The notes beneath the pieces are model-generated. The model did no database searches and was not told the DNA's origin. It saw only the letters and a program-made list of their open reading frames with translations. A stretch of 39,016 bases of DNA from contig JAMLIT010000037.1 of the NCBI GenBank assembly GCA_023954035.1, forward strand, positions 1-39,016. The letters are read 5' to 3'. The position numbers and the translations under genes are program-made. The stretch's first letter is position 1; each line of letters begins with the position of its first letter. Of this stretch, positions 381 to 32,616 are shown one piece after another. Source of the stretch: Burkholderiaceae bacterium (GTDB lineage Bacteria > Pseudomonadota > Gammaproteobacteria > Burkholderiales > Burkholderiaceae_C).

Positions 381-440
381 GATTGCTATTGAAAAAATAG
401 CTACTAGCGCTTATCCAATAAGCGCTAGAGGCGGTTTTTA
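381..440 (+). repeat. Repeat R1, Comamonadaceae-type palindromic repeat between convergent genes
   Basis: This is the best-preserved copy of the repeat family in the window. It has a small hairpin GCTATT-GAAAA-AATAGC at 385-401, then a perfect 11-bp stem (404-414 and 418-428, loop CCA) built on CTAGCGCTTAT, then GAGGCGGTTTTTA. Written in this direction the family consensus is about GCTAT-N5/7-ATAGCT, AGCGCTT-N3/8-AAGCGCT, GGAGGCC, TTTT. The copy sits between two convergent genes and overlaps the last codons of the minus-strand BrkB gene. Confidence 0.85.
404..438. terminator. Hairpin of R1, probable intrinsic terminator
   Basis: The perfect 11-bp stem at 404-428 with a three-base loop is followed on the plus strand by GAGGCGG and a T-run at 435-439. 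It lies 31 bases after the cyclase stop, so it fits a rho-independent terminator for that gene, though the gap between stem and T-run is longer than ideal. On the minus strand the stem is followed by TAGCTATTTTTTC, so it could also end the BrkB transcript. Terminator activity is inferred from shape only. Confidence 0.55.
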
Positions 441-1591
441 GCTGTTTTTTGTGGTGCGCCAGCCGACGCTCCCTTCCCGCGCTTGCGCCGGGTGCGCACG
501 GCCCGCCAGCGCTGCGCCAGCACCTGGCTCAGCAGGCCACCGGCAATCATGCCGACGACCACGCCGACTGCGGGCTCGGGCATGGGGCGATCGGGTGCCG
601 ACGGCGGGGGCGGCGGCATGCGCAGCGGCGCGGACGCTGCCGGTGCGAGTGCATCCGTGCCCTCGGCTGCCAGTGCGGCCTGGGCGCGCGTGGCCTGCAC
701 CGCCGATCGGCCCGCGTGGCCGCCACGGTCGTCCGAATACACCTTGGTGAATTCGGCGCCGAGCAAGAAGATCTGCGCGGCGTAATACACCCAGGCCAGC
801 AGCACAACCAGCGAGCCCGCCGCCTGGAACGATTCGCCTACGCCGCTCTTGCCCAGGTACAAACCGATCAGAAATTTTCCCGCTTCCAGCAGCACGGCGG
901 TGACCGCGCCGCCCACCCAGACGTCGCGCCAGGCGATGTGCACCGAAGGCATGAATTTGAAGATCATGGCAAAGAGCACCGTGGTGCTGCCCACCGACAG
1001 CAGCGTGTTGATCCCCTGTAGCAGCACTTCCCACCCGGGCATCAGGGCGCCGGCCCAGCTGCCGAACGCCGAGATGGCGGCGCTGAGCACGGTGGACACC
1101 ATCAGCAGGAAGGCCAGGCCCAGGATGAGCCCGAACGAGAGCACGCGCGCGCGAAGAACCGCCCACACGCCGCTGGGCTTGAGCTTGTCGGGTACATGCC
1201 AGATGCGGTCCAGTGCGCTCTGCAGTTCGGCGAAGACGGTGGTGGCACCGACCAGCAACACCACCACGCTGATGCCACCCGCCACCAGGCCGCGCTCGGG
1301 TTCGCTCGCGCTTTGGATGATGCCCTGCACGACCACCGCGCCCTCGTGGCCAATCAGGCCCTGGAGCTGGCCGACGATCTGGCCCTGCACCGCATCGCGG
1401 CCAAAAATGGCGCCCGCCACGGCAATCACGATCACCAGCAGCGGGGCCAGTGAAAACACCGTGTAGTAGGAAATGGCCGCCCCCATGCTGGGCGCGAAGT
1501 CGTCGATCCAGCCGGCGGCGGCGCGTTTGCAGAGATCAAAAAGGTGGGCGGGGCGCATTGGCGGGCCGTTCGTATCCAGATGAATCGCCAT
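425..1591 (-). CDS. YihY/virulence factor BrkB family membrane protein
   Basis: The 388-residue protein has about six hydrophobic segments (roughly residues 38-62, 103-122, 150-172, 192-212, 226-246 and 261-281). It carries the family hallmarks: the first segment GAAISYYTVFSLAPLL, a middle ELQSALDRIWHV, and the last segment with LVVLLAWVYYAAQIFLLGAEFTKVY. An Ala/Pro/Arg-rich cytoplasmic-type tail follows from about residue 300. Family members are inner-membrane proteins once called RNase BN; that activity was later assigned elsewhere and the true role is unsettled. The ATG at 1589-1591 is preceded by GAGAGGAGA. The last codons (KNRL) and the TAG stop come from repeat R1, so the C-terminus was probably reset by repeat insertion. 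Confidence 0.9.
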   Translation of the reverse strand: MAIHLDTNGPPMRPAHLFDLCKRAAAGWIDDFAPSMGAAISYYTVFSLAPLLVIVIAVAGAIFGRDAVQGQIVGQLQGLIGHEGAVVVQGIIQSASEPERGLVAGGISVVVLLVGATTVFAELQSALDRIWHVPDKLKPSGVWAVLRARVLSFGLILGLAFLLMVSTVLSAAISAFGSWAGALMPGWEVLLQGINTLLSVGSTTVLFAMIFKFMPSVHIAWRDVWVGGAVTAVLLEAGKFLIGLYLGKSGVGESFQAAGSLVVLLAWVYYAAQIFLLGAEFTKVYSDDRGGHAGRSAVQATRAQAALAAEGTDALAPAASAPLRMPPPPPSAPDRPMPEPAVGVVVGMIAGGLLSQVLAQRWRAVRTRRKRGKGASAGAPQKTAKNRL

Positions 1592-4791: not shown

Positions 4792-4897
4792 CGGAGAGGG
4801 CGGTCCAGTGCGGACGATGAGGGGAAACCCCAGATTTTAGCGGGCCAGCATGGCAGGGCCGGAAGCATGGGCGTTGCCATGCAATAGAGTGGCGCCC

Positions 4898-5704
4898 GTG
4901 TCGCACGCCCCGCTGATCCCTTCCACCGCACCTCCCGCCCGCGCGCAGGCGCCCGCGCTGCTGCTGGCTGCCGGCCGCGGCGAGCGCATGCGGCCGCTGA
5001 CCGACCACACGCCCAAGCCCTTGCTGCAAGTGCACGGCCGCCCGCTGCTGGCCTGGCATTTGCAGGCGCTGGCGCGCGCTGGCGTGCCGCGCGTGGTCAT
5101 CAACACCGCCTGGCTGGGCGAGCAGATTCCCGAGTATTTTGGAAGCTTTTTTGGCCTCCAGCGCTCGACTGAAAAGCGCCAGCAGCTATCAATTTTGTAT
5201 TCGCATGAAGGACGCGACTTCGGCGATGCACTGGAAACTGCGGGCGGCATTGCGCGCGCCCTGCCGCTGCTGGACGCCGACGTGTTCTGGCTGGCTGCGG
5301 GCGATGTGTTCATGCCGGCTTTTGGCTTCGATTCGGCCGCCGTGCACAATTTTCGGGAAGGCGGCGCGCTGGCACGCCTGTGGCTGGTGCCCAACCCACC
5401 GCAGCACCCCCGCGGCGATTTCGGGCTGTCCGAGACCGGTCTGGCGCTCAACCTGCCGGAGGCCGACCCACGGCCCCGCTATACCTACAGCACCCTCGCC
5501 CTGCTGCATCGGGATTTGTTCGCGCCGCCCTGGTGCGATATTGCGCCCGGCAACCCGCAAGGGGTACGCGCGGCGCTGGCGCCGCTCTTGCGCCGGGCGA
5601 TGGACAATGGCCGCGTGCAGGCCGAACTTCACACCGGCCGCTGGGTCGATGTGGGCACGCCGCAGCGCCTGGCCGACCTCAACGCCGAAACTCTGTCACC
5701 ATGA
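4898..5704 (+). CDS. murU: MurU-like sugar-1-phosphate nucleotidyltransferase with repeat-encoded insert
   Basis: By family this protein transfers a nucleotide to a sugar 1-phosphate; the closest recalled match is MurU, N-acetylmuramate-1-phosphate uridylyltransferase of cell-wall recycling. The signature LLLAAGRGERMRPLT, then PKPLLQVHGRPLL, and the later LAAGDVF fit this group. From GTG 4898 the protein has 268 residues, longer than the roughly 225 of MurU. An in-frame ATG at 4850 would add 16 residues with no better ribosome site. Residues about 82-100 (GSFFGLQRSTEKRQQLSIL) are encoded by repeat R2 and interrupt a region where relatives pass directly into YSxEGRDFG. The TGA overlaps the ATG of pepP (ATGA), so the two are translationally coupled. 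Substrate identity is inferred. Confidence 0.8.
   Translation: MSHAPLIPSTAPPARAQAPALLLAAGRGERMRPLTDHTPKPLLQVHGRPLLAWHLQALARAGVPRVVINTAWLGEQIPEYFGSFFGLQRSTEKRQQLSILYSHEGRDFGDALETAGGIARALPLLDADVFWLAAGDVFMPAFGFDSAAVHNFREGGALARLWLVPNPPQHPRGDFGLSETGLALNLPEADPRPRYTYSTLALLHRDLFAPPWCDIAPGNPQGVRAALAPLLRRAMDNGRVQAELHTGRWVDVGTPQRLADLNAETLSP
5141..5202 (-). repeat. Repeat R2, intragenic copy inside the murU-like gene
   Basis: On the plus strand this reads GGCCTCCAGCGCT, seven variable bases, AAGCGCC, AGCAGCTATCAATTTTG. That is the reverse-oriented form of the family seen at R1 and R5. The core stem is reduced (GCGCT/AGCGC) and the small GCTAT..ATAGC hairpin has lost its outer arm. It keeps the reading frame open and encodes FFGLQRSTEKRQQLSIL. 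Confidence 0.8.
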
Positions 5705-7225: not shown

Positions 7226-7804
7226 TTACATACCGTACTTTTTCTTGGCGTCTGCCTCGCACTTGTTCTGCTCCTCGCCCTGGAGGGGTTCGCAGCGTTC
7301 CTTGGCGGCCTTGTACTCGGCTTCGCGCTTCTCGTGGTCGGCGTCTTTCCTGGCCTCGGCGATGGCGGCGCGCTTCTCGCTGGCGTTGTCGGCTGGTTGG
7401 GCCTGCGCGCGCGCCACCTTGGCGTTCTCTACGGCTTTCACATGGGCGGCCTTGGCGTCCTTCTTACAGACGTCCTTCTCATTGCCCTTCATGTCGTCGC
7501 ACTTTTCCTTGGCGACTTCGTAGTCGGCGTCCGCGCGTTCCTTGCGGGCCTTGTAGGCAGCCTTGTCGCTGGGTTTGTACTGCGCTTGCAGCTCGGCCTT
7601 GGCGACTATTTCGTTGCCCTTGGCTTGCTTCTCGCAGACATCCTTGGCGTTGTCCTTGAGGGCGTCGCACTTTTCCTTGGCCATTTTGTAGTCGGCCGAG
7701 ATCCGGTCGTTGGCGGCGGCGTGCTCGGCCTTGTCCATGGCCATGCCGGTGCTTGCCACCAGGCCGGTCAGCGCCAGCGCCATCAGATTGCGGGTGAAGT
7801 TCAT
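7226..7804 (-). CDS. Secreted helical protein with three CX10C repeats, function unknown
   Basis: I do not recognise a functional family. The 192-residue protein starts with a signal peptide (to about Ala22 in STGMAMDKA), then is charged, Lys/Ala/Glu-rich and predicted helical. Three units begin with (A)DY/EYx-AKE(K/R)C and each holds two cysteines ten residues apart: Cys46/57, Cys102/113 and Cys171/182. The regular spacing suggests helical hairpins clamped by disulfides in the periplasm. The longer frame to 7867 is rejected because AGGAGA sits five bases before the ATG at 7804. It follows the CsbD gene after 23 bases and ends at a strong terminator, so it is probably part of the same stress-induced unit. 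Confidence 0.8.
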   Translation of the reverse strand: MNFTRNLMALALTGLVASTGMAMDKAEHAAANDRISADYKMAKEKCDALKDNAKDVCEKQAKGNEIVAKAELQAQYKPSDKAAYKARKERADADYEVAKEKCDDMKGNEKDVCKKDAKAAHVKAVENAKVARAQAQPADNASEKRAAIAEARKDADHEKREAEYKAAKERCEPLQGEEQNKCEADAKKKYGM

Positions 7805-7809
7805 GGTCT

Positions 7810-7815
7810 TCTCCT
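7810..7815 (-). promoter_or_regulatory. Shine-Dalgarno site fixing the start at 7804
   Basis: The minus strand reads AGGAGA five bases before ATG 7804. It lies between the CsbD stop and the ATG and rules out the longer upstream frame. Confidence 0.75.
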
Positions 7816-7827
7816 GGGGCGCCCGGC

Positions 7828-8046
7828 TCAATCGTTGAAACGGAAGTCCGGGTTGCGGGTGTGCCATTCGCTGAGCTGCTTTTCCGCAGCTTCGCGGGCC
7901 AGACCTTCGCGCTCCTGCAGCTTGCCGATGAACTGTTCACGCTTGCCGTCGATGACGTCCAGGTCGTCGTTGGTCAGCTTGCCCCATTGCTCTTGCACCT
8001 TGCCGGTGAATTGCTTCCAGTTTCCCTTCATGCGGTCTTCGTTCAT
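7828..8046 (-). CDS. CsbD family stress-response protein
   Basis: The 72-residue protein begins MNEDRMKGNWKQFTGKVQEQ and continues WGKLTNDDLDVIDGKREQF, the standard CsbD-like domain that fills the whole protein. Members are small, hydrophilic, abundant under general stress, and of unknown biochemical role. The ATG at 8046 has GAGGAA five to six bases upstream. It is the first gene of a two-gene unit with the CX10C protein. A long nested inverted repeat at 8072-8110 lies just upstream, inside the probable leader or promoter region. Confidence 0.93.
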   Translation of the reverse strand: MNEDRMKGNWKQFTGKVQEQWGKLTNDDLDVIDGKREQFIGKLQEREGLAREAAEKQLSEWHTRNPDFRFND

Positions 8047-8261: not shown

Positions 8262-8930
8262 TCAGGGCGCCGTCTGGTTGACCCAGACCGACAGTTCGTT
8301 GGCCGCTTTACGTGCCGCCTGGGCCAGCGCGGCACTGCCGCCCGCAGCGTCGGCGCTGGGCGCGCCTTCGCGCAGCGCGAAGACCCGTTGCGCGCGCAGG
8401 CGCTCGCCCTGGGGCGTGGGCTGGCTGAGCGTCGCGCGCAGGCGAAGCACGCCTTCGCTTTGGCTGGGCGAGGCAAAGACCTGGCTGAACTCCTCCAGCT
8501 CCAGCCGCAGCACCAGCAGGCCGGCGTCACCTTCACGCGCGGCCTCGCGCGCCGCGCGCAGGGAGAGCACGGGGCGCTCGGCGCCCAGCGCAGCAGCCAC
8601 GCTTTGCTGCACCAGCCGGGCGGGCGGCTGGCTCCAGCGGGCCCGCTGGTAGGCGCGCAGTTGCTGGGCATCAGCGTAAGTCAGGCGGTAGTGCAGTGCG
8701 GTCGAGCCTTCGGGCAGGCCGGGGCTTTCCACATCGGCCAGCACCAGCGGCGCCCGGCGGGGCGCGGCCGGCTGCACCGGCGCAGCCAGCGCGCTCGGGC
8801 CAAAGTCGTAAACCGCTGCCGGCACCGGCGGCGAAGGCAGCGCAGAGCAGGCGGCCAGAAAATTCAGGCAAAAAATGGCTCCAGCGCCTATGCGTAGGGC
8901 GCTAACAGCTATATTTTTCATAGTATTCAT
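8262..8930 (-). CDS. PqiC/ABC-type transport auxiliary lipoprotein of the Mla-like system
   Basis: The 222-residue protein has a lipobox LAAC ending at Cys28, then a Pro/Ala linker and a domain typical of the lipoproteins paired with MCE systems (PqiC type): YDFGPSA, then HYRLTYADAQQLRAYQRARW, and an end helix AARKAANELSVWVNQ. Such proteins sit in the outer membrane inner leaflet and partner the MCE protein in lipid traffic. It is the last gene of the operon, seven bases after the MCE gene stop. The start may be 8930 or the second ATG at 8921; neither has a strong ribosome site. Residues about 3-23, nearly all of the signal peptide, are encoded by repeat R3. Confidence 0.82.
   Translation of the reverse strand: MNTMKNIAVSALRIGAGAIFCLNFLAACSALPSPPVPAAVYDFGPSALAAPVQPAAPRRAPLVLADVESPGLPEGSTALHYRLTYADAQQLRAYQRARWSQPPARLVQQSVAAALGAERPVLSLRAAREAAREGDAGLLVLRLELEEFSQVFASPSQSEGVLRLRATLSQPTPQGERLRAQRVFALREGAPSADAAGGSAALAQAARKAANELSVWVNQTAP
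8862..8924 (-). repeat. Repeat R3, copy encoding a lipoprotein signal peptide
   Basis: On the minus strand the copy reads CTATGAAAAATATAG, CTGTTAGCGCC, nine bases, GGCGCTGGAGCCATTTTTTGCC, matching the consensus order small hairpin, core palindrome, GGAGGCC, T-run. It is in sense orientation to the gene and encodes MKNIAVSALRIGAGAIFC. The internal start codon ATG (8919-8921) lies inside the small hairpin. Confidence 0.8.
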
Positions 8931-8937
8931 GGTGCAC

Positions 8938-9918
8938 TCACTGCGGGTTGCGGGCAGGGGCTACAAAACCCGGTTCACCCGGTCCAGGGCTGGCCTGGCC
9001 GGATCCATAGATGAAACCTTGGGGGTTGGCGCTGACCTCGGCGGCGGTGCGCGAAATCTGGCGCGCGGCGCGGCCGGTGTCGTCGGCGGCGCGCTCCAGG
9101 CTCGGCAGGGTGGTGGACTTGAGCCGCTCGGCCGCCTGCGAGAAGGTTTGTACACCGTGCGCGGCCTGCTCGATGGGGCCACCGGGGGCGCCCAGGCGCT
9201 GCGCGGTCTGGCCAAAGGTATCGGCCATCACCGCAATCTGGTCGCCCGCCTTCTTCAGCGACTGCACGGCGCCGCCGGCGTCCTTGGCGAGTGCGGGCAG
9301 CGCGGCCAGGGCAGGGTCCAGGCGCTCGGTGACGCTGCGGTCGAGCCGGCGGGTGAGCGCATCGACGCTGGCCGCGGCCGAACCGATGTGGGCCAGCGCG
9401 TCGGCAAAGTGTTTCTGGTTGTCGTCAGAGAGCAATTGGTTGACGCGCTTGGTCACCTCCTGCACCTGGCCCAGGATGATCGGGCCCTGCTCGGAGAGCT
9501 GGGCAAAGGGCGAGGAGTGCAGCGGCAGGCGCGGCAGGCCGCTGACGCCGGGCGGCAGCGGCGGGTGGGACTTGCCCGCGTCGTCGAGCAGGATGTACGA
9601 CAGCCCGGTGACGCCCTGGTAGCCCAGCGTGGCGAACGTGGTGGGGGTGATGGGCGCGTCGTCGTCCACGGCAATGCGGATCAGCACGTTGCCACTGACC
9701 TGCGGGTCAAAACCGATGTGCGTGACCTTGCCCACGGCCACGCCCTTGTAGCGCACGGCCGCCTGCGGCTGCAGGCCGCTGACGCCGTCGCGCGTGGTCA
9801 TCTCGTAGGCGAGGTAGTCGCCGTTGTCGCGCGTGAGCCACATGGCCAGTGCCACCACCAGGCCGCTGACCACCAGTACGAACAGACCGGCGGCGAGCGC
9901 GTGCGATTTGTTTTCCAT
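8938..9918 (-). CDS. MlaD-like MCE domain protein
   Basis: The 326-residue protein has one N-terminal membrane segment (about 9-28), then an MCE domain (about 38-115) with DGVSGLQPQAAVRYKGVAVGKV and the loop GVTGLSYILL. A long helical C-terminal half follows, with heptad-like Ala/Leu/Gln spacing, as in MCE proteins that form a hexameric ring and tunnel across the periplasm. The ATG is preceded by AAGGAGA and overlaps the ATPase stop as TGATG, so the two are coupled. By family it passes phospholipids or other hydrophobic molecules between the permease and the outer-membrane partner. Confidence 0.92.
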   Translation of the reverse strand: MENKSHALAAGLFVLVVSGLVVALAMWLTRDNGDYLAYEMTTRDGVSGLQPQAAVRYKGVAVGKVTHIGFDPQVSGNVLIRIAVDDDAPITPTTFATLGYQGVTGLSYILLDDAGKSHPPLPPGVSGLPRLPLHSSPFAQLSEQGPIILGQVQEVTKRVNQLLSDDNQKHFADALAHIGSAAASVDALTRRLDRSVTERLDPALAALPALAKDAGGAVQSLKKAGDQIAVMADTFGQTAQRLGAPGGPIEQAAHGVQTFSQAAERLKSTTLPSLERAADDTGRAARQISRTAAEVSANPQGFIYGSGQASPGPGEPGFVAPARNPQ

Positions 9919-10748
9919 CAGGTCTCCTTGCCGGCCTGCACCGGCGCCATGGCGCGGCGACCGCGCTCACCCAGAAAAAATTGCTCGACGAAGGGATGCG
10001 GGAAATGTGCCACCTCCGCCGGCGCGCCGGTCACGATCACCTTGCGGTCGGCCAGCACGGCCACGCGCGTGGCCAGGGCGAACAGCGTGTCCAGGTCGTG
10101 CGTCACCATGACCATGGTGGTTCCGAGCGCGGCGTGCAGTTCGCGCACCAGCTCGCAGAACGCATCCGCTCCGTTGGGGTCCAGGCCGGCGGTCGGCTCA
10201 TCGAGCAGGAGCAAAGGCGGGTCCATGATGAGCGCGCGCGCCAGCGCCACGCGCTTGATCATGCCGCCCGACAGATCGGCCGGCATGCGCGTGGCGTGCG
10301 CGGGCTCGAGCCCCACCATCTGCAGTTTGACCAGCGCCGCGTCGCGCACCAGGTCGGCGGGCAGCGTGCCCTGCTCGCGCAGCGCGAAAGCGACGTTGTC
10401 GAGCACGTTGAAGGCGGAAAACAGCGCCCCATGCTGAAACAGCATGCCCACCCGGCTGGCTGCGCCCTGGCCGCCCATCTCGGCCGCCGGCCTGCCCAGC
10501 ACCGTCACGCTGCCGGCGGCGGGCTGCAGCAAGCCCAGCATCTGGCGCAGCAGCACCGTCTTGCCCGTGCCCGAGCCGCCCACCAGCGCGAGGATTTCGC
10601 CGCGCTCGACGTCCAGCGACAGGCCTTGGTGCACGGTGTAGGCTTCGTCGCCCTTGCCGAAGGTGGTCTGCAGGCCTTCGATGCGCACGACGGGCTCGGC
10701 CCGGGCGGCAAGCGCGGGCGGCGGCGGGGGCGGTGCGGTCTGGGCCAT
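9918..10748 (-). CDS. Mla-type ABC transporter ATP-binding protein
   Basis: This is the MlaF/Mkl-like ATPase of the lipid transporter. Walker A is GGSGTGKT, the signature is LSGGM, Walker B is LLLLDEPTAGLD, and the switch histidine is in VMVTHDLDT. The C-terminal FLGERGRRAM tail is typical of MlaF-like ATPases. The start at 10748 (MAQTAPPPPPP, 276 residues) is chosen over 10799 because GGAGA lies six bases upstream of it and nothing suitable precedes 10799. The short Pro/Ala-rich N-terminus is unlike the family core. It lies between the permease and MCE genes in one operon. Confidence 0.93.
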   Translation of the reverse strand: MAQTAPPPPPPALAARAEPVVRIEGLQTTFGKGDEAYTVHQGLSLDVERGEILALVGGSGTGKTVLLRQMLGLLQPAAGSVTVLGRPAAEMGGQGAASRVGMLFQHGALFSAFNVLDNVAFALREQGTLPADLVRDAALVKLQMVGLEPAHATRMPADLSGGMIKRVALARALIMDPPLLLLDEPTAGLDPNGADAFCELVRELHAALGTTMVMVTHDLDTLFALATRVAVLADRKVIVTGAPAEVAHFPHPFVEQFFLGERGRRAMAPVQAGKET

Positions 10749-10754
10749 GTCAGG

Positions 10755-10759
10755 TCTCC
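10755..10759 (-). promoter_or_regulatory. Shine-Dalgarno site fixing the ATPase start at 10748
   Basis: The minus strand reads GGAGA six bases before ATG 10748. The alternative ATG at 10799 has no comparable site. Confidence 0.7.
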
Positions 10760-10822
10760 ATGGGGCTGCCAGCTCTGGCGGCTGCGCCGAGGCGCCCAAT
10801 GCGACTCAAGGGGTGCTTCATC

Positions 10823-11947
10823 TCAGAACCCCACGCTCTTGAACGCGACGGCGAACAGCGCGTCGACAATGATGACGACGGTGATGGACGACACCACCGA
10901 CGCCGTCGTCCCTTCGCCCAGGCTCTGGGTGTTGGGCTTGACGCGCAGGCCCCAGTGGCAGCCCACCAGCGCGATCAGCGTGCCGAACACCACCGATTTC
11001 GACAGCGCCAGCGTCAGGTTGCCGGTGTTCACCGCGTTGGGCAGCGCCTGCAGAAAGTAGGCCGGCGAGACGTCCATGGCCGCGTCGGCGGCGAGCATGC
11101 CCCCGGTCAGGGCCGCCAGCGTGGTCCATACGCTCAGCAGCGGCATGGCAATGGCGAGCGCCACCGCCCGCGGCATCACCAGCCGAAAGCCCTGCGGGAT
11201 GCCCATGACGCGCATGGCGTCGAGTTCTTCGGTCACGCGCATGACGCCGATCTGCGCCGTGATCGCCGAGCCCGAGCGCCCGGCCACCAAAATGGCAGCG
11301 AGCATGGGGCCGAGTTCGCGGATCAGCGAGATGCCCAGGATGTTGACGATGAAGGCTTCGGCGCCGAACTGGCGCAGTTGCAGGCTCATCAGGTAAGCCA
11401 GCACCACGCCGATCAAGAAACCCACCAGCGCGGTGATCGGCAAGGCCGTCGCGCCCATGCGGTACAGGTGGCCCGAAATGTCGCGCCAGGGCGCGCGGTG
11501 GGGCGCGCGCAGCACGCGCAGGCTGTCGAGCAGCAACTGGCCAATCAGCATCAGCAGGCGCTGCAGATGGTCCACACCGTGCAGCACCATCACGCCCAGG
11601 TCGTCGATCTGCTCGGCGAAGCTCCAGGGCTCGGGCGGTGGTGCTTCGGTGGTCAGCGATGCGACGCGCTCCAGAATGGAGCGCTGGGTACTGTCCAGCG
11701 CCAGGCGCTCGGGCCAGGCGCGGCCCCAGTGGTTCCACAGCAGCTGTGCGCCGACGTGGTCGAGCCAGTCCAGGCCGCGCAAGTCCCAGCCCAGACCGGC
11801 CTGCGGCGGTGCGCCGGCCAGTTCTGCGCGCAGCGACCGCCAGCGCCTGCGTGCGCCAATGTCGGCCGCTCCCCAGCGCCCATGCAGCCGAATGCTCGGC
11901 CCTTCGGGCGTCTCATGGCGTGACAATCGGGGAGCGTAATCGGGCAT
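10823..11947 (-). CDS. MlaE-type ABC permease with N-terminal STAS-like domain
   Basis: The 374-residue protein from ATG 11947 has two parts. Residues to about 100 resemble a STAS/MlaB-like domain (IRLHGRW, then GWDLRGLDWLDHVGAQLLWNHW). The rest is a MlaE permease with about five membrane segments and the family motif IRELGPMLAAILVAGRSGSAITAQIG, followed by EELDAMRVMG, which contacts the ATPase. The fusion explains why no separate MlaB gene is seen. The frame is open to 12085 through a TTG, but those residues are Arg-rich and come partly from repeat R4. It is the first gene of the permease-ATPase-MCE-lipoprotein operon. Confidence 0.9.
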   Translation of the reverse strand: MPDYAPRLSRHETPEGPSIRLHGRWGAADIGARRRWRSLRAELAGAPPQAGLGWDLRGLDWLDHVGAQLLWNHWGRAWPERLALDSTQRSILERVASLTTEAPPPEPWSFAEQIDDLGVMVLHGVDHLQRLLMLIGQLLLDSLRVLRAPHRAPWRDISGHLYRMGATALPITALVGFLIGVVLAYLMSLQLRQFGAEAFIVNILGISLIRELGPMLAAILVAGRSGSAITAQIGVMRVTEELDAMRVMGIPQGFRLVMPRAVALAIAMPLLSVWTTLAALTGGMLAADAAMDVSPAYFLQALPNAVNTGNLTLALSKSVVFGTLIALVGCHWGLRVKPNTQSLGEGTTASVVSSITVVIIVDALFAVAFKSVGF

Positions 11948-12054
11948 TGCAGGGGCGAAGCGTGGGCGCGCAGCGTCGCGCAGACGTGAGAGTGCATGGT
12001 AGCGGCAGCAGGCCGCAGACGACGCAGCCGATGCGCACGCCCAGGAAAATCGTA

Positions 12055-12117
12055 TCAAAATAGGACGCCTGCGCAGACGGCGCAAGCGCCATTCGCTATT
12101 ATTCTTATAGCTATGTA
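12055..12117 (-). repeat. Repeat R4, degenerate copy in a divergent promoter region
   Basis: On the minus strand the order is AGCTATAAGAATAATAGC (small hairpin), then GGCGCTTGCGCC, then GCGCAGGCGTCCTATTTTGA. This matches the consensus order with an altered core. It lies between the divergent MlaE-type and GMC genes and supplies the only AT-rich stretch there (TATTATTCTTATAGCTATG, 12097-12115), so it may carry promoter elements. The remaining bases 11948-12054 and 12118-12159 show nothing clear. Confidence 0.55.
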
Positions 12118-32465: not shown

Positions 32466-32534
32466 AATGCTATCTAATTAGTAGCTTGTAGCGCTTGCTG
32501 AACAAGCGCTGAAGGCACTTTTCATTCAATAATT
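32466..32534 (+). repeat. Repeat R5, intergenic copy
   Basis: The copy begins directly after the hydrolase TAA: GCTATCTAATTAGTAGCTT, then the perfect 8-bp stem AGCGCTTG / CAAGCGCT (32490-32497, 32503-32510), then GAAGGCACTTTTCATT. It separates two convergent genes and could terminate the plus-strand message, with the T-run at 32519-32522. Bases 32535-32616 show nothing clear. Confidence 0.85.
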
Positions 32535-32616
32535 TCCACCGTAAACCTCCAAGAAGGAATAGGCTGGCATTCGCCTCCTTCTCAGACCGCTCTTGCCGAG
32601 GGTCGGACAGGCGTGC

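Follow-up and report, generated by a model that had tools for sequence, protein, structure and literature searches.

In the window, as we call the whole 39,016-nt stretch of Burkholderiaceae DNA analysed here (contig JAMLIT010000037.1), a lipoprotein gene takes nearly its entire signal peptide from a repeat of ~70 bp with dyad symmetry that recurs throughout the genome. We consider it probable that this genome-wide motif overlays a signal peptide that existed before it, and that a force acting at the level of the DNA holds it there. The gene would already have had an export signal, over which the motif would have been written by substitutions, by conversion or by both; a DNA-binding protein or a bias in DNA uptake would be the leading candidates for what keeps it in place. 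The translation of the motif would serve as the n- and h-region of the peptide, and a permissive signal peptide would be good ground for such a motif.

The repeat within the lipoprotein signal peptide

The features on which the argument turns are the following.
8262..8930 (-), ABC_trans_aux (PqiC-like) lipoprotein gene, 222 aa, PF03886 match
8858..8926 (-), dyad repeat copy with the 36-nt core, coding for residues 3-24 (the n-region plus the greater part of the h-region), from a hidden Markov model (HMM)
8877..8912 (-), 36-nt palindrome at the core of the repeat, from a pattern match
8847..8858 (-), lipobox L25-A26-A27-C28, adjoining the repeat on its downstream side

The 222-aa open reading frame (ORF) matches PF03886 (E 1.8e-8, 34.6 bits against a cut-off of 26) and has MlaD, ABC_tran and MlaE neighbours, the combination that marks PqiC-like lipoproteins; on these sequence grounds its product is a PqiC-like lipoprotein of an MCE/Mla-type transport operon. 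Its translation opens MNTMKNIAVSALRIGAGAIFCLNFLAACSALP, and the N-terminus up to the lipobox reads MNTMKNIAVSALRIGAGAIFCLNF-LAAC. Examined by eye, this segment has the traits of a type II signal peptide, namely K5, R13, a hydrophobic stretch I14-A27 and the lipobox L25-A26-A27-C28, and it appears to be an ordinary type II (lipoprotein) signal peptide by which the product would be exported.

The repeat HMM has 73 positions and was built from 56 copies in the window's own genome, the lipoprotein copy being excluded; it matches 8926-8858 on the minus strand over model positions 3-71 with 43.2 bits (E 6.8e-13). This match bears out an initial annotation of the window in which a repeat was said to cover the N-terminus of the lipoprotein in sense orientation and to include its second ATG: that ATG, at 8921, does lie within the repeat, and the first ATG, at 8930, lies just beyond its edge. 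The residues then assigned to the repeat, about 3-23, were broadly right, the actual span being slightly larger, residues 3-24, beginning within codon 2 and reaching the first base of codon 25. The lipobox begins at the codon right after these residues and, as annotated, the repeat appears to supply nearly the whole signal peptide. The peptide encoded by the motif probably remains functional, since the sense frame of the motif is free of stops and provides a lysine near the start, followed by Ala, Ile and Phe.

Genome-wide, the consensus of 30 own-genome copies is tGCTattaAaTta-ATAGCTGCTAGCGCTT....aATAAGCGCTAGAGGCC-AATTT.aCT.aAAATTT, the full element being a dyad of ~70 bp whose core ends are ATAGCTG and GAG(G)CC. 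In the own genome a strict 37-nt pattern finds 33 copies, compared with 0 in a reversed-pattern control, and a looser pattern gives 28 matches (26 of them 36 nt long), compared with 1. The core thus has two regular lengths, 37 nt and 36 nt, and a private 1-nt deletion in the lipoprotein copy is ruled out, as its 36-nt core is a regular form. The strict pattern is present in 34 of 100 related genomes, in 1 to 106 copies each, and yields 2 matches in the reversed control over all 100; 33 of the 34 motif-bearing genomes belong to the window's family code, and the family of the motif-rich genomes is probably Comamonadaceae. In G048 the left half of the motif is often CACCGCAGG, a local variant, as if genomes had their own dialects. 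The strict pattern also occurs in 59 stretches of a viral collection, three of which (L354, L371, L380) are on one viral contig; phages or prophages are possible carriers, and some of the 59 matches are possibly false.

Age and maintenance of the motif

Orthologs of the lipoprotein were gathered at 60 loci by three scans (30, at least 10 and 20 loci, the at least 10 being mostly metagenome-assembled genomes titled Comamonadaceae or less). At the 5' end the repeat scores at least 8.5 bits in 30 of the 60 loci and less in the other 30; by chance, 4 of 2042 random windows from the same loci reach this level (26.9, 26.9, 19.4 and 10.6 bits) and, the windows being unmasked, some of these four are possibly real neighbouring copies. 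Among same-genus genomes with an ortholog locus the repeat is found in 21 of 25, and it is also found in some other genera. A quick tree of 57 rows, based on the mature lipoprotein plus MlaD (omitting L168 and L169, which are partial, and L055, for which no MlaD was found), contains a 30-row clade (SH-aLRT 98) with 25 repeat-bearing and 5 repeat-less rows, and over the whole tree the repeat state changes 8 times, compared with a shuffled mean of ~19. The spacing between repeat and lipobox is identical in all 21 same-genus rows with the repeat; other spacings occur in L046, L052, L058, L059, L131, L151, L156 and L157, all outside the genus, and these may represent separate events or indels. The repeat is old in the lipoprotein gene.

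A permissive lipobox pattern is matched by 59 of the 60 orthologs, with or without the repeat, and because the repeat-less orthologs match it too, export most likely preceded the repeat. The initial annotation had named the same peptide in repeat-less orthologs as the observation that would overturn its proposal. This was not seen as stated, since these orthologs mostly have other signal peptides, but L050 and L053, two of the three repeat-less rows that come from repeat-free genomes of the same genus, have MYANIAAR (codons ATT GCT GCC CGA), which looks like a faded copy. Three genomes with a repeat-less lipoprotein, G002, G005 and G008, have zero strict-pattern copies genome-wide.

The number of motifs per genome correlates with the motif bits at the lipoprotein (Spearman 0.89; 42 genomes of the genus and family, order-level orthologs and ten loci of the named-genome scan being omitted) and with the motif score in RsmB (Spearman 0.90; 57 genomes); for this input, order-level genomes were set to 0 motifs, though G066 has 1. 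At the Ile-Ala pair of the motif, a script counted ATA at all 25 Ile codons and GCT at 29 of the 30 Ala codons, and hand correction of one misplaced row (L035, ATA GCG) changes these figures to 26 of 26 and 28 of 30, compared with a background in the same loci of 3/340 for ATA and 115/2187 for GCT. N-terminal codon bias fails to explain this retention of ATA, because the codon is rare both in the signal peptides of repeat-less orthologs (2/28) and in MlaD N-termini (1/29). Since the score tracks the genome's motif count and the rare ATA is kept, the DNA itself seems to be maintained, beyond what the peptide alone would account for. The gene would thereby be a case in which one stretch of letters is subject to pressure on the DNA and at the same time spells a protein signal, with rare codons kept though the peptide needs none.

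Other genes bear the motif as well. ATGA with the motif close behind was found in 31 of 60 relatives, and of the in-frame starts read at L061-L130, a subset of these pattern matches, 32 of 69 open frames of at least 80 codons, a count that includes orthologs and nested starts and possibly some spurious frames. A search for other secreted proteins with the same start, as the initial annotation had advised, was rewarded: among ten proteins scanned, the exported-type Pfam families that start in the motif are an M16 peptidase, a cupredoxin, an outer-membrane efflux protein and a chalcone-isomerase-like protein, and the remaining families are DUF1289, a GTPase resembling CysN, Hsp70, two ABC ATPases and DUF934. 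A rough gene caller, which scores codons and learned from 16 ORFs of the window, places 20 of the 58 own-genome copies inside ORFs, in both orientations. Alignment to solved structures confirms eight hosts: RsmB, TruB, PurL, Tex, MnmE, a short-chain dehydrogenase/reductase (SDR), an acyl-CoA dehydrogenase and UvrA. Further hosts are presumably MutL, LigA, ComEC, the linker of pyruvate dehydrogenase (PDH) E2 and KdtA, and in G001 a repeat lies within the open frame L129:201-995, which resembles part of an aconitase gene. The window's assembly (G000) has two Tex genes (L300 on C21 and L326 on C36), each with the repeat; it may hold a second species, because the Tex of L326 resembles those of G012 and G018. 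In G008, likewise, a Tex gene lies at contig coordinates identical to those of the Tex in G010.

Overwriting, insertion and rival explanations

A simple insertion of ~72 nt would be expected to leave its hosts ~24 residues longer. Compared with the best solved homolog, the net gain is 0 residues in RsmB, 1-2 in the acyl-CoA dehydrogenase, 4 in TruB, 4 in MnmE, 7 in PurL, 10 in Tex, 12 in the SDR and ~33 in UvrA, that is, seven of the eight hosts gain less (0 to +12) than the ~24 encoded residues and UvrA gains more. RsmB has a single length in 52 of 54 matched orthologs, and the majority sequences of 22 rows with and 28 rows without the motif differ only within the motif footprint, in a comparison that leaves out 7 of 57 rows (3 unanchored, 2 of other length and 2 scoring 5-15 bits). 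The RsmB loop is mostly native, and many rows hold only the left arm and the right-side AT tract; judged from these alignments, the motif in RsmB was clearly written in place by substitutions. The same gap test served to show that the uptake sequences of Haemophilus are not insertions (PMC1626085). In TruB, a repeat-less trio has the same length as the same-genus motif bearers, most rows from other families being 4 residues shorter. Tex proteins with the motif are 5-10 residues longer than most without, and two motif-less rows are equally long. Given Tex and UvrA, the alignments suggest that insertion plays some part in some genes.

By the tests made, the repeat is not a classical repetitive extragenic palindrome (REP). 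The tags GTAG or CGTC at the core ends are absent from the consensus. None of the 15 Y1_Tnp loci examined, of ~50 matches, has a Y1 transposase flanked by repeats; 12 of the 15 are from motif-bearing genomes and two hold one repeat copy each. Across 18 same-genus genomes Y1_Tnp genes do not track the motif, G003 having 38 motifs and 0 Y1_Tnp genes and G002 having 0 motifs and 4, and a REP transposase as the driver was set aside, no link having been found among the loci and genomes examined. Among ten arm pairs in the 56 own-genome copies no varying pair beats shuffling for covariation, near-invariant pairs being uninformative, and the fold of the lipoprotein copy under DNA parameters is no better than that of shuffled sequences (z -0.90). 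A hairpin signal was likewise discarded as unsupported by the fold and covariation results.

These observations bear on the explanation closest to the initial annotation, in which a mobile REP-type palindrome entered the gene at its 5' end, where its translation replaced or extended an old signal, and the present bearers descend from a few insertions. We regard it as unlikely, while recognizing what it would account for: the repeat is multicopy and discrete, the UvrA copy lies in a segment ~33 residues longer than the solved homolog, Tex is longer with the repeat than mostly without, some genera have another spacing between repeat and lipobox, and L156, L157 and L151 carry the repeat although their lineages fall outside the main clade. 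It is at odds with RsmB and same-genus TruB, in which length is unchanged, with the net gain below ~24 residues in seven of eight genes, with the mostly native letters of the RsmB loop and with the failure to find a link to a REP transposase. The annotation had proposed that a mobile palindrome turned into an export signal; that it did so in a gene with no earlier signal was not supported, since the copy is common to 21 of 25 same-genus genomes and to other genera, 59 of 60 orthologs match the lipobox regardless of the repeat, other genes took up the motif in place or with little net length, and neither arm covariation nor a linked transposase was found.

The dyad symmetry over codons 7-18 would suit an RNA hairpin, or an element close to the start codon that controls translation, with the peptide as a by-product; this seems improbable to us, as the fold of the lipoprotein copy does not surpass its shuffles, varying arm positions are uncompensated in the 56 copies, and copies lie inside genes in both orientations. 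It is more doubtful still that the start has been misassigned and the repeat is an untranslated leader, a notion prompted by REPs at annotated N-termini that are often non-coding in other species, according to passages of PMC3733652: by eye there is no in-frame ATG, GTG or TTG between the second ATG and the lipobox, the lipobox would have no signal peptide without the residues encoded by the repeat, and the spacing between the two is kept in all 21 same-genus repeat-bearing orthologs. The translated repeat is Ala-rich, as signal peptides are, and a chance resemblance could be imagined on that account; the match (E 6.8e-13) over 69 nt, which includes the AT tracts of both sides, and the retention of rare codons leave it practically no credence.

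The reading that we favour, a DNA-maintained motif laid over an older signal peptide, also has evidence to contend with. No close motif-less relative showing the overwriting in the lipoprotein gene itself was found, signal peptide lengths vary among the orthologs, the tree requires several gains or losses, and the length changes of Tex and UvrA (~33 residues over the solved homolog) are not those of a purely in-place process. The correlation has exceptions in both directions: G014 (25 motifs) scores 2.7 bits at its lipoprotein, the fourth same-genus repeat-less row (L048), and G034 (10 motifs) 4.5 bits, and G045 and G027, which have no strict motifs, yet reach 11.2 and 8.8 bits. Because related genomes are not independent, the correlation and codon figures overstate significance. 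Finally, the HMM was trained on one genome, including its RsmB, TruB and Tex copies, so that the HMM scores of these three genes lean upward; their lengths and letters are independent of the HMM.

More tentatively, and with distinctly less confidence than for the lipoprotein itself, we propose that genomes of this family might carry an unrecognised ~70-bp dyad motif, resembling an uptake sequence or a binding site of a chromosomal protein, which would propagate by overwriting, in place, sequence that is already there, also within core genes. It would repeatedly take over permissive signal peptides, and it would fade jointly from genes, with much of the amino-acid sequence kept, once a lineage loses the driving system. 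The motif could be an uptake sequence, a chromosome-organising site or a relic of mobility. As it stands, a genome-wide motif in a large environmental family reaches into the genes for UvrA, Tex, TruB, RsmB, MnmE and PurL, and annotators and phylogeneticists will therefore meet odd N-termini and variable loops.

Known repeat systems and further features of the window

Uptake signal sequences (USS) of Haemophilus and DNA uptake sequences (DUS) of Neisseria number ~1 copy per kb, compared with 7 places in 39 kb for the ~70-bp dyad motif. Origin in place by substitutions, a trait of uptake sequences, is clear in RsmB, whereas the Tex and UvrA copies accompany extra length. Rickettsia palindromic elements (RPEs) are insertions; unlike them, the motif mostly leaves its hosts with a gain shorter than the element, host lengthening by the full element being absent in seven of eight cases (0 to +12). 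RPEs, which PMC3733652 mentions, resemble the motif in being palindromic repeats that are read in frame within many genes; here 20 of 58 copies lie in ORFs, and eight hosts were aligned. GTAG/CGTC REPs, in passages of the same paper, are small palindromes found inside repair and tRNA-modification genes, as in UvrA and TruB here; unlike those, the motif showed no tag, no covarying stem and no flanked transposase. The RU-2 repeat in Yersinia YPO1552, whose relatives have unrelated signals according to Delihas 2007 (PMC2759123), is a 168-bp enterobacterial unit, whereas the motif described here spans genera and several exported families and looks maintained as DNA. The Bordetella BRE repeat was considered as the same element and rejected, since passages of PMC3110155 give it ~69% GC and ~90 bp.

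In its motif section, PMC5217627 lists ATAGCT(N)22CAAAAG in Polaromonas naphthalenivorans CJ2 (125 copies, of which 18 lie in genes and 6 overlap a gene start or end) and GCTTAT(N)5AAGCG in Acidovorax ebreus TPSY (114 copies, of which 5 lie in genes and 2 overlap). From their letters, both are very probably the repeat described here; that section treats them as potential novel motifs, and within it nothing is said of a coding role, a signal peptide or an origin in place. Among the literature matches this paper alone lists what looks like the motif. A search by the letters of the repeat found no paper, a coding role is absent from the titles and abstract openings among the matches listed for REP, signal-peptide, coding-repeat, Comamonadaceae and uptake literature, and the motif is not mentioned in passages of PMC2755013 (CRISPR only) or PMC2267715.

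The HMM scan found six copies in the window besides that in the lipoprotein gene, and they are given here with the other genes of the operon.
383..441 (+), repeat copy, 47.1 bits
5138..5199 (-), repeat copy, antisense inside the ORF 4850-5704 (+), 45.5 bits
8938..9918 (-), MlaD/MCE-domain gene, upstream of the lipoprotein gene, its stop 7 nt ahead of the lipoprotein ATG
9918..10799 (-), ABC ATPase gene in the same row, from a Pfam scan
10823..12085 (-), ORF for an MlaE-type permease, whose actual start is probably internal
12045..12113 (-), weak repeat copy (17.7 bits) in the same operon, at the upstream edge of the permease ORF
32467..32535 (+), repeat copy, 36.8 bits
34747..34813 (+), repeat copy, 34.2 bits
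38687..38755 (+), repeat copy, 55.4 bits

The weak copy at 12045-12113 is probably a fading repeat, and the ORF 4850-5704 (+) presumably encodes a protein resembling a sugar-nucleotide transferase. The ORF 7226-7867 (-) has no Pfam match; it contains three direct repeats of ~79 nt and is, by eye, rich in Lys and Cys codons.
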